Part shown: piece by piece, positions 58,264 through 61,397 of the stretch
Layout: every line of letters begins with the position of its first letter
Numbering within the stretch: the stretch's first letter is position 1
From: Candidatus Peregrinibacteria bacterium CG11_big_fil_rev_8_21_14_0_20_49_14
GTDB taxonomy: Bacteria; Patescibacteriota; Gracilibacteria; Peribacterales; Peribacteraceae
DNA length: 64,000 nt
Assembly: GCA_002787035.1 (NCBI GenBank)
Contig: PCVP01000012.1
Span: forward strand, 1-64,000
Direction of reading: 5' to 3'
Translations under genes and position numbers: made by a program
Notes under the pieces: generated by a model
Databases searched by the model: none
What the model saw: only the letters and a program-made list of their open reading frames with translations
What the model was told of the DNA's origin: nothing

Positions 58264-58510
58264 CTGGTTGTCGGAGAGGGGAGCAGTTTACGGGTAGGAA
58301 ATGTATTGTCCAGTGTTAGTTGGGTAAATTATGTGATCAAACATTCACAGGAGAGAAAACACTGTTTGTTGTCTACTATTAGCCAAAAAATGCCCCTTAA
58401 AAGTGAAGAAAAGCACACGGTCAATCTTGTATAAAAAATGTATACAAAAAAGTGAGAAATATGGGTAATTATCGTATGTAATTGGCTACCGAAAGCGCAA
58501 AAGTCCGAAT

Positions 58511-60220
58511 TTAAACGGAGGTCGGCACTCCGGAGGATTTACGCTGCACAGTGCACCAATGGTTCACTGCTTGCAGGCAAGATTTCAAACTGGCGTACGT
58601 GGCATCGGTGTCGTACCCGTATCCGTCCAATGCGTCTGCCCCTATGCGCATGCGTGCGAACCCCCACACGGTCGCATCTCTGCCCGGAGCACCTTCGCTG
58701 TCGGAAGCTTTCGCCGCCTCGTCTTCGTGCGTCACCGCACGCTCCACCCATTCTTCCACATCCACGGAGACGCCGTATTCGGCTTCCAGAATGCGACTGA
58801 GGCCCGCTACGAATGCAGATGTCGGACCGTCACCTTTCCCCTCAAGTACGAATGTATCGTCTCCCACTGTCATGGGTACGGTCACATGGACGATTTTTCG
58901 AGCTTTCTGTTTTGGTGCCCCCTTTTCTGTCGGTTTTTCATACCGGATTTCCACTTCGTCGAAGTCTTCTATACGCAAATGCAGAGGATCTCCGTTCCTC
59001 TTTGCTTCCCATGCGGTGGCATGGAGCAGCGAGTCCGTTACTCTTCCGCCGAGAAGTACCGCCATTTGGTAGGCATCTGCATTCGCATGTTCGAGCTGCG
59101 CATCCGACAGAGATACTCCTTGTGCTTCCAAAATTGCTTTGAGACCTTTGCGACCCGACTGGTCGCTGTAGACAAACGGCGTATCTATATCCACACCGAT
59201 ACGCTTGGGATCGTACGATGCGAACATGAACGGATTTTTCAGTATGCCGTCTTGGTGCATTCCTGCCGCTGTTTTATGACTGAATTGCCCATGACCAGGC
59301 ATATACGGAGAACGGGGGATGCGCAGTGCCAAAGATCCCAGACCCGAAAGGTCATCTAATTTCGTTAGACCCTCGTCCGTCAGGCCTTCCATGCGGGCAT
59401 GATCTTCGTACCGTGCCATTCCGTCTATGTGCGTATTGAGAATATACGTGGAGAGAGGCATGTTTCCGCTGCGCTCTCCTTCGCCGTTTATTGTGCCCTC
59501 CACCACGTTCATCAGCTTCCGTTTGGCCGCAAGAAGAGCTGTGGCAACGGCTATGCCGCGATCGTTGTGCAGGTGAACGCTCCAGTCGACCTTGTCGCTT
59601 CCGGGCGTTCCTTCCTGCAGCTCCTGCAGCAGATCCAAATATGCTTCGGGATCGTTCACGTGCCCGACGGTATCGGGTACGGAAATAATCGTCGCACCTT
59701 CTTCTATGAACGCCGCGCAGAGATCCAGCAGATACCCTATGTCTGCTCTCGTGGAATCTTCCAAATAGACCAGGAGGTCGTGTATGTCTTGCGACTTCGC
59801 GTGCCGAACGGACTCACGGAATACTTCCAGCATTCGAGATCTCTTTCCTTCTATCTGCTGGCCGGCCACCGAGCCGAATTTATCCATCTGAAAGTCGCTT
59901 ACTGAGGTGAGGAGGGCTATGCCTCTTCTCGCCGCAGGTTGTACGGTTTGCGCCACCAAATCTATTTCGGATTTCTTTGCTCTGGAAAATCCCAGTACGG
60001 AGGTCTGCGCTCGTTCTCTGTGATCTTGCGCTATGGCGCCGACAATGAGTCGGGACCTCGGGCCCGCTATGGGAATGCCCGCTTCCACAAAATGCATTCC
60101 AAAATCACTGGCCGCCAGAGCGTACTCGCGAAATTGATCTATTTGGTCATCTGGCTGAAAGCTCATGCCGGGTCGAATAACCTGGTTGCCGTCGCGGAGT
60201 GTCGTATCGAGTAGCTTCAT
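58511..60220 (-). CDS. 2-Isopropylmalate or (R)-citramalate synthase
   Basis: 569 residues from the ATG at 60220. The HMGL-like barrel shows KLLDTTLRDGNQVIRPGMSF, LEDSTRADIGYLLDLCAAFI, VHLHNDRGIAVATALLAAKR (HxH metal site) and VVEGTINGEGERSGNMPLS. The C-terminal 110 residues are the LeuA regulatory domain (LEGKGDGPTSAFVAGLSRIL, GYGYDTDATYASLKSCLQAV). Both LeuA and CimA share this layout, condensing acetyl-CoA with a 2-oxoacid. The leader upstream is rich in Ile codons and not Leu codons, which favours citramalate synthase (isoleucine route). No other ilv/leu genes are in the window. No Shine-Dalgarno sequence. Confidence 0.85.
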   Translation of the reverse strand: MKLLDTTLRDGNQVIRPGMSFQPDDQIDQFREYALAASDFGMHFVEAGIPIAGPRSRLIVGAIAQDHRERAQTSVLGFSRAKKSEIDLVAQTVQPAARRGIALLTSVSDFQMDKFGSVAGQQIEGKRSRMLEVFRESVRHAKSQDIHDLLVYLEDSTRADIGYLLDLCAAFIEEGATIISVPDTVGHVNDPEAYLDLLQELQEGTPGSDKVDWSVHLHNDRGIAVATALLAAKRKLMNVVEGTINGEGERSGNMPLSTYILNTHIDGMARYEDHARMEGLTDEGLTKLDDLSGLGSLALRIPRSPYMPGHGQFSHKTAAGMHQDGILKNPFMFASYDPKRIGVDIDTPFVYSDQSGRKGLKAILEAQGVSLSDAQLEHANADAYQMAVLLGGRVTDSLLHATAWEAKRNGDPLHLRIEDFDEVEIRYEKPTEKGAPKQKARKIVHVTVPMTVGDDTFVLEGKGDGPTSAFVAGLSRILEAEYGVSVDVEEWVERAVTHEDEAAKASDSEGAPGRDATVWGFARMRIGADALDGYGYDTDATYASLKSCLQAVNHWCTVQRKSSGVPTSV

Positions 60221-60240
60221 GGGAAAAAGAAAGTACAAAC

Positions 60241-60265
60241 AAAAAACCGAGCGCTGCGGGCTCGG
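60241..60265 (-). terminator. Attenuator terminator before the synthase gene
   Basis: On the minus strand CCGAGC (60260-60265) pairs with GCTCGG (60247-60252) around a 7-nt loop, followed by six T. It ends 20 nt before the synthase ATG. Confidence 0.85.
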
Positions 60266-60292
60266 GGTGAAGTGCTTTTATTCTTGTATCAG

Positions 60293-60361
60293 CTACCTCC
60301 TCACGCCGAGCGCGGGAATAATAATGGAGCTGATAATGGTGCTGCGAAGTCGCATTTCCAT
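60293..60361 (-). CDS. Ile-rich attenuator leader peptide of the synthase gene
   Basis: A 22-codon frame, MEMRLRSTIISSIII then PALGVRR. Codons 9, 10 and 13-15 are Ile. The stretch GCTCGG-C-GTGAGG (60299-60311) in its last third can pair with CTTCAC-CC-CGAGC (60260-60272), which includes the terminator's 5' arm. A ribosome waiting at the Ile codons leaves it free (antitermination); one at the stop covers it (termination). Stalling at the single late Leu codon would cover it, so the device should sense Ile. It resembles the ilv leaders of enterobacteria in having an Ile run before Pro. Confidence 0.75.
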   Translation of the reverse strand: MEMRLRSTIISSIIIPALGVRR

Positions 60362-60365
60362 ACAG

Positions 60366-60393
60366 ACTTTACTCTCAGGCTGAATGTTGTCAA
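60366..60393 (-). promoter_or_regulatory. Promoter TTGACA-16-TAAAGT of the synthase leader
   Basis: On the minus strand consensus TTGACA (60388-60393) and TAAAGT (60366-60371) are 16 bp apart. The leader ATG at 60361 begins 4 nt after the -10 box, so the second ATG at 60355 may be the real first codon. The -35 overlaps the stop of the upstream gene. Confidence 0.75.
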
Positions 60394-61397
60394 TCACTGT
60401 CGGATTCCGCTTTACTCTTTGCATAGAAGGTGACAATAACATCTTCCATTTCCGTTGACTCCAGCTGTACGCCCAAATGCACGTGAGTGTTGCTCTGCAG
60501 AAGTTCTCTCACATTACGTTCCACATTCTCTATCGCTTCGGGAGTGAAGTCCGCACGAAAGGCATCATAGGAATATATTTCATCAAACTTTTCCTCCCAG
60601 CCGTCCTCGTCCTTTTCTTCTCCCAGCGTCACGTTTTTAGGCTTCGGATTTCCCTTGGAGTAAAGCAGAGCTTTAAACCTTCGCAACGGATCTGCCGTAA
60701 ATTTATAGACATTGATTTTCCACGGATCGGATTTGTTCGTTTGCAAATACAGACGCAGCAGCCCCTCCTGCTCTATGAGTTGTTCCAGGTCTTCCCAAAC
60801 CTGATGTGCTCTCTCGATGCAAGACGACATTTCCACTTCTCTATAGTCATACAGCATTCTCGTTGTTGCACTGTAGTTAAATCGTGAATCTTTAAACACG
60901 GAGAGGGGCCGTATGCTGCCTTGGGTGGAAGGAAGTACGTACACATGTTCCGGAAGGGGAGTGCGCACATGTTGTAAAAATGCCAGGCCGTCTCTCGGGT
61001 AGCACGAAAGGTTATCTTCTATTTCATCCACAATACCCGGAATGGAACGCCCCTCACCAACGGGTTCTTCCGTAAGCCGGACAGGTTTTTCAATCGCGGT
61101 GTAAAACTTTCTGCTGTAGGCGTGTGCATTAGCCATGATCGTTAAAAGTTTCGGATCCCGTTGTGATGCATAGGCACACACAGTTTCAGGTTGTATGCCG
61201 TGAAAGTTCAGCGCTTCACGCAATGCATCTTTTCCGGAATCGGGATTATTCAGTGCGTCATGAAATCTACTCATGACACTGTGCTCCAAAAATCCGATAC
61301 TCTCGGGAGTAAGCTCCAGCAGGTTTTCATCGTGGCGTTTTTTTTCTGACTTCTGTCCTTCTTTTCTACCCGGATCATGTTGTTCGCTATCCATCAA
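60390..61397 (-). CDS. Hypothetical protein
   Basis: 335 residues, soluble. A charged N-terminal tail (DPGRKEGQKSEKKRHDENLL) precedes a mixed alpha/beta body (GLAFLQHVRTPLPEHVYVLP, WEDLEQLIEQEGLLRLYLQT, DPWKINVYKFTADPLRRFKA). No motif or family recognised. Its stop overlaps the -35 of the synthase leader promoter, but that promoter makes the genes separately controlled. Confidence 0.65.
   Translation of the reverse strand: MMDSEQHDPGRKEGQKSEKKRHDENLLELTPESIGFLEHSVMSRFHDALNNPDSGKDALREALNFHGIQPETVCAYASQRDPKLLTIMANAHAYSRKFYTAIEKPVRLTEEPVGEGRSIPGIVDEIEDNLSCYPRDGLAFLQHVRTPLPEHVYVLPSTQGSIRPLSVFKDSRFNYSATTRMLYDYREVEMSSCIERAHQVWEDLEQLIEQEGLLRLYLQTNKSDPWKINVYKFTADPLRRFKALLYSKGNPKPKNVTLGEEKDEDGWEEKFDEIYSYDAFRADFTPEAIENVERNVRELLQSNTHVHLGVQLESTEMEDVIVTFYAKSKAESDSD

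Follow-up and report, generated by a model that had tools for sequence, protein, structure and literature searches.

The window analysed here, a 64,000-nucleotide stretch of Patescibacteria DNA, carries on its minus strand a short isoleucine-rich open reading frame (ORF), an intrinsic terminator and a gene for a LeuA/CimA-like synthase. The question raised by this locus is whether the three elements form a ribosome-mediated transcription attenuator, and what such a device would control in a genome that apparently cannot make isoleucine. The reading defended below, with high confidence, is that of a three-hairpin attenuator tuned to isoleucine. No RNA or protein data stand behind it. Its basis is layout, conservation, cognate pairing and computed folding, while translation of the leader, pausing, termination and the transcriptional response are inferred.

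The open-access literature searched contained no paper on leader-peptide attenuation in Patescibacteria or the Candidate Phyla Radiation. The mechanisms by which these bacteria differentiate between the host-attached and the starved state have been called completely unknown in a review (PMC11665869). The attenuator of the window offers a concrete, conserved and testable starvation sensor.

Layout of the locus

The features are listed in the order of transcription, with the basis of each assignment in brackets.

60366–60393, minus strand: sigma-70-type promoter TTGACA-16-TAAAGT (sequence and promoter scan)
60293–60355, minus strand: leader peptide ORF from its preferred start, MRLRSTIISSIIIPALGVRR, stop TAG (spacing in relatives)
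60317–60337, minus strand: control codons, Ile 7 and 8 (60337–60332) and Ile 11–13 (60325–60317) (sequence; Ile run kept in 30 aligned loci)
60326–60334, minus strand: region 1, ATCAGCTCC, pairing with 60300–60288 as protector helix 1:2 (fold; swapped-arm test)
60299–60311, minus strand: region 2, antiterminator arm GCTCGGCGTGAGG, ending just before the leader stop (pairing)
60288–60300, minus strand: GGAGGTAGCTGAT, the 3′ section of region 2, which pairs with region 1 and includes the leader stop codon (fold)
60260–60272, minus strand: region 3, CTTCACCCCGAGC, pairing with region 2 and including the 5′ arm of the terminator (pairing)
60241–60265, minus strand: intrinsic terminator, hairpin 60265–60247 followed by T6 at 60246–60241 (sequence)
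58511–60220, minus strand: gene of a 569-aa LeuA/CimA-like synthase, ATG at 60220 (homology)

The order promoter, short ORF, intrinsic terminator and gene was confirmed for all features. An earlier note on this DNA, made from the sequence alone, had placed a TTGACA-16-TAAAGT promoter before the leader and a terminator 20 nt before the structural gene, and both are present. The −35 element occupies 60393–60388 and the −10 element, after a spacer of 16 nt, 60371–60366. The same arrangement, TTGAC[AT]-16-TAnnnT, was found in all 14 Ile-type loci measured. The terminator consists of the stem CCGAGC-loop-GCTCGG and the T6 tract, and about 20 nt separate its end from the gene. The promoter starts inside the stop codon of the upstream 335-aa ORF (60390–61397, minus strand), which thus ends right at the attenuator promoter and has no Pfam match.

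The extent of the leader had to be revised. Two candidate ATG codons, at 60361 and 60355, share the stop TAG at 60295–60293, and the first would give the peptide MEMRLRSTIISSIIIPALGVRR, the leader of 22 codons with Ile at positions 9, 10 and 13–15 that the earlier note had proposed. The start codon follows the −10 element at 7–13 nt, mostly 9–11 nt, in 14 homologous loci. The ATG at 60355 lies 10 nt from the −10 element and fits the relatives, whereas the ATG at 60361 lies 4 nt from it, at or before the transcription start; the second ATG is therefore preferred. As predicted from this spacing, the leader is probably MRLRSTIISSIIIPALGVRR, with 20 codons, on a near-leaderless transcript whose 5′ untranslated end is just a few bases long. 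No Shine-Dalgarno sequence was found before the leader ORF. Five Ile codons fall within codons 7–13 of the 20.

RNA structures and proposed mechanism

The minimum-energy fold of the leader RNA contains the protector helix (60334–60326 with 60300–60288) and the terminator together. The fold has a z-score of −3.3, and none of 200 shuffled sequences was as stable. The third pairing is the antiterminator, in which 60311–60299 (GCTCGGCGTGAGG) faces 60272–60260 (CTTCACCCCGAGC). Here 12 of 13 positions pair, one of them as G-U, so that the complementarity with the 5′ arm region of the terminator noticed earlier was borne out. The accompanying view that only two structures compete was not, because the protector helix is present besides the antiterminator and the terminator.

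The effect of a ribosome on this RNA was computed by masking the leader with a 12-nt downstream footprint. The probability of the terminator is 0.995 in the free RNA, 0.27 with the ribosome at Ile7, 0.018 at Ile11, 0.81 at Ile12 and again 0.995 at the stop codon. The loss of the terminator upon stalling was matched by 6–20% of shuffles in which the middle segment of the window sequence was rearranged. The evidence beyond chance for a switch in this single sequence is moderate, and the weight of the argument rests on the relatives.

An attenuator of this type is expected to meet six criteria, all of which are met here: an end-product codon run in the leader; a terminator between the leader and the gene; an antiterminator that excludes the terminator; a protector helix 1:2; formation of the terminator, by computation, when a ribosome at the leader stop conceals region 2; and a downstream gene for synthesis of the cognate amino acid, assigned by homology at 26 of 30 loci, with the substrate inferred for the window gene. 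A full pathway in the genome, the usual companion of such a switch though no part of it, is absent. The following mechanism is proposed. Transcription would start a few bases 5′ of the leader AUG, and a ribosome would load on the near-leaderless end. With ample charged tRNA-Ile, the ribosome would reach the UAG and cover region 2, the terminator 3:4 would form and transcription would stop near 60241. When isoleucine is scarce, the ribosome would stall on the Ile codons (by computation best at 7, 8 or 11) and disrupt the helix 1:2. Region 2 would then be free to pair with region 3, no terminator would form and the synthase gene would be transcribed. If no ribosome initiates, the helix 1:2 is predicted to form and the terminator to be kept.

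By analogy, the attenuator of the ilvBNC operon of Corynebacterium glutamicum comes closest in its near-leaderless start and its three hairpins. Transcription of that operon begins one nucleotide from the leader AUG, the peptide is MTIIRLVVVTARRLP, and terminator, antiterminator and anti-antiterminator hairpins are described (PMC11857589). The likeness, which also includes the short peptide rich in branched-chain residues, is one of layout and does not involve a sequence comparison. The differences are that ilvBNC is a branched-chain synthesis operon with Val and Leu control codons, whereas the window has a single first-step gene without a pathway, an Ile run and an unrelated lineage. The leaders ilvL, leuL, thrL and pheL of Escherichia coli likewise consist of a control-codon ORF, then a terminator, then a committed-step gene or operon. 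Unlike the leader of the window, the enterobacterial ilv, leu, thr and phe leaders have a Shine-Dalgarno site, and larger operons stand behind them. A weak likeness to the Rfam Trp_leader (RF00513) was found at 60326–60239, at 17.1 bits and below the cut-off of 41; the window is not a member of that family, which concerns a different amino acid. A T-box or another known riboswitch or leader was rejected as a candidate, as no Rfam 15 family was matched at its gathering score.

Conservation of the leader and of its pairings

A sequence model of the leader (match threshold E ≤ 1e-5) found it in 32 of the 74 genomes of the window's family and in one genome of another family. The gene that follows was examined at 30 loci: it is CimA at 12, IlvA at 10, the window gene or its relatives at 3, another LeuA/CimA-like gene at 1, and none of these at 4. 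Hence 26 of 30 loci precede a first-step enzyme of isoleucine synthesis or a relative of one, assigned by homology. CimA and IlvA are unrelated enzymes which both produce 2-oxobutyrate or its precursor for isoleucine. That one leader serves both is strong functional evidence. A CimA search over 353 genomes of the class showed that all 11 genomes of the family with a genuine CimA carry the Ile leader, and no Ile leader was found before CimA in the other examined families of the class. Short-ORF scans upstream of LeuA/CimA homologues also detected Ile-rich leaders outside the genus of the window. A protein search of genome contigs gave no match to the window gene, and one with the CimA alignment yielded distant phyla only. 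When 79 of these distant CimA genes were checked upstream with a lax Ile-ORF scan, there were 9 matches, which concern the ORF only and not the full architecture. A chimeric contig or contamination was considered and rejected, the genus relatives G001 and G002 having the same leader.

The pairings were compared between cognate and swapped arms at 14 loci. Cognate arms paired better for 1:2 and 3:4 (each 0 of 20,000 permutations) and for 2:3 (119 of 20,000, with region 3 including the loop); with a shorter region 3 without the loop there was no clear 2:3 signal. For 2:3, 76.7% of cells are paired in the alignment of 30 loci, as compared with 43–59% when the arms are slid. A leader whose Ile run or alternative pairings were not conserved in relatives had been named in advance as refuting the attenuator. 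This refutation did not materialize: the Ile leader is kept in 32 family genomes, and all three pairings are stronger in cognate than in swapped arms.

Covariation in the Ile type is modest, with 2:3 slightly above shuffles, and the 30-locus alignment is imperfect in its 3′ part. RNAalifold gave no useful structure on the first small Ile alignment because the 3′ part was misaligned. The motif GGCGUGAGGARGUAG is kept across genomes in differing reading frames, with the stop codon inside it, which argues that selection acts on the RNA. Also conserved among the loci is a GC-rich stem with a T tract behind it. In the sister leaders of the Leu type, 9 pairs of a 20-pair structure change on both sides as against 2.2 expected (0 of 500 shuffles). 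This covariation, an inference from aligned sequences, is taken as decisive for the predicted antiterminator helix of the Leu type.

Static folding with a masked ribosome predicts that 11 of 14 loci, the window included, lose the terminator at one or more Ile stalls, and that all 14 keep it at the stop codon. No clear switch was predicted in this way for G001, G002 and G054. In G006, G015 and G045 the antiterminator prevails in the absence of a ribosome as well, and the protector 1:2 is absent or weak. Conservation, cognate pairing and the compensatory changes of the Leu type together argue for classical ribosome-mediated attenuation in a lineage of the Candidate Phyla type.

The structural gene and the missing pathway

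Pfam assigns the 569-aa product HMGL-like and HCS_D2 domains as well as a weak LeuA_dimer match, and the positions invariant among 29 aligned homologues are conserved in it. Its gene is probably monocistronic, since no evident same-strand gene follows. By family models the protein is neither LeuA nor CimA. It reaches 100.7 bits with the citramalate synthase model TIGR00977 (curated cut-off 450), and 188.9 and 205.9 bits with the 2-isopropylmalate synthase models TIGR00973 and NF002086 (cut-offs 598.7 and 532). A citramalate-synthase-like role is indicated by the Ile leader and by the genus relative G002, in which the near-identical leader MQVLSISSSIIIIPALGVRR precedes CimA (344 bits). The gene is thus most likely a citramalate-synthase-like first-step enzyme, its substrate being inferred.

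The genome of the window (G000) is 98.6% complete. IlvC, IlvD, LeuC and PLP-dependent enzymes of the IlvA/TrpB family (PALP) were not found in it. Among the 74 genomes of the family, IlvD was detected in 1, LeuC/aconitase in 3 and IlvC in 1. One family genome, G051, is an exception as the only one with IlvC, IlvD and LeuC-type matches together. The earlier inference that a reduced genome keeps amino-acid attenuation stands as far as the conserved leader and its pairings go. What the control serves is not a working isoleucine pathway, however, since IlvC, IlvD and LeuC are missing; a first step is regulated here without the pathway to which it belongs. The bacterium is reduced and probably host-dependent. 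A Peribacteria-like group is inferred from the small genomes, from the 24 in-frame TGA codons in a CimA gene of one member of the class (G209) and from published Peribacteria, which have few amino-acid genes (PMC4736985).

Other leaders and orphan first steps

Ile is not the only amino acid with such a leader. The single-contig genome G030 was searched by tblastn with 38 E. coli enzymes of amino-acid pathways, and the clear matches were just LeuA, IlvA, DAHP synthase and a ProB-like kinase. Further matches were AroA (possibly MurA), HisH/HisF/HisA-like genes, and ThrA over a short length. IlvA, LeuA, DAHP synthase and the glutamate-5-kinase-like enzyme are first committed steps, each behind its own leader peptide.

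When the whole of G030 was scanned for the leader architecture, 7 loci emerged, as against 2 in the reversed sequence. An Ile leader precedes IlvA. A Thr leader, MSQRATTTTTTTTSR (G030:C1:615774, minus strand), stands immediately upstream of threonyl-tRNA synthetase. A Phe/Tyr leader beginning MAQRQSYFYGFFFTPY (G030:C1:816902, minus strand) is followed in an operon by an unknown 103-aa ORF and the orphan DAHP synthase; chorismate synthase was not found in this genome. A leader with some Pro codons precedes the ProB-like kinase, and a Met/His leader an operon with histidyl-tRNA synthetase. The remaining two loci are a Val leader and one without a clear assignment. The Leu leader of LeuA escaped the architecture scan, yet it is present. 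The assignments to Pro, Val and Met/His are weak.

In G000, about half of the genome was scanned. A Lys/Thr-rich leader, MQSSQPTKMLKTKKTSLHRKGGC (L306:19220, minus strand, contig C22), precedes a 549-aa aspartokinase-like gene, and aspartate-semialdehyde dehydrogenase was not found in this genome. The Leu-type leader MHQRxLLLGLxLLLLTAEGRLRA occurs in 55 family genomes, for example at G000:C22:20544–20638 (L082).

The Ile attenuator is apparently one of a set that covers Ile, Leu, Thr, Phe/Tyr and Lys/Thr, and possibly Val, Met/His and Pro. Such leaders annotate enzymes by the amino acid sensed. The pattern of first steps under leaders for their own end products is hard to dismiss, and it amounts to a paradox: end-product control of first-step enzymes where the genomes apparently cannot make the end product. 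One possible explanation is offered only as a speculation, and is rather unlikely to be right. The lineage may keep just the feedback-regulated first steps (CimA/IlvA, LeuA, DAHP synthase and the glutamate-5-kinase-like and aspartokinase-like enzymes), each behind its own end-product leader, to increase the amount of amino acids made by a host equipped with the later steps. Glutamate kinase and aspartokinase form labile products, so in that case the enzymes themselves might need to work within the host cell. If this were true, orphan first steps would push host pathways beyond the host's own feedback control.

Alternative explanations

The best surviving alternative, though with only about one chance in ten in the analysts' judgement, treats the attenuator as a relic, the pathway having been lost and the leader and first gene being functionless leftovers in decay. 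It would account for the absence of IlvC, IlvD and LeuC from almost the whole family and for the scores of the window protein far below the LeuA and CimA cut-offs. A decaying gene would not be expected to show intact reading frames and conservation at the invariant positions of the family alignment, nor a leader preserved over many genera with CimA and IlvA alternating behind it. Aromatic, Pro-type and Asp-family first steps moreover show the same pattern, and drift would not leave just first steps with matching leaders.

Far less probable is the reading of the short ORF as a chance occurrence or another small protein, with the hairpin as the terminator of the upstream gene and the synthase promoter further downstream. 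The upstream ORF does end at 60390, just before the leader, and a small protein has a precedent in peTrpL, a leader peptide acting in trans in other bacteria (PMC7298713). Against this, the promoter scan found no promoter-like site within 58400–60600 other than the one where the upstream ORF ends, and in genomes whose upstream genes differ the complete unit is again present before Ile first-step genes. Control of synthase translation instead of termination, suggested by the resemblance of AGGAGGU in region 2 to a Shine-Dalgarno sequence, can hardly be right, as this stretch has no suitably spaced start codon after it, the start of the synthase lacks a Shine-Dalgarno sequence and lies outside the hairpins, and the GC-rich stem with its T tract is conserved. 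The transcription attenuator thus remains the preferred reading.

Additional observations

Several features of the genomes were noted in passing. The CimA gene at G209:C62:70888–72459 contains 24 in-frame TGA codons, so that this genome probably reads TGA as sense. In G030, adjacent HisH- and HisF/HisA-like genes (G030:C1:1001157–1002587) occur without other his genes. A Lys-rich leader in G000, MQLSLLKQKKAKKTSHTGKDSC (L287:17602, minus strand, contig C3), precedes a 308-aa ORF with a weak formyltransferase match.

Among the Leu-type leaders L062–L091, 20 of 30 precede a fast-evolving ORF of about 55–170 aa that is not leuA. These ORFs mostly start about 20–55 nt past the terminator, and some have a [DE]RxMMRxxGIxV-like motif. 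In the Leu leaders L012, L022, L031, L068 and L081, in-frame repeat-like inserts lengthen the ORF without closing it; in L012, L022 and L031 the insert reads CCCTGAGC...GTCGAAGGG.
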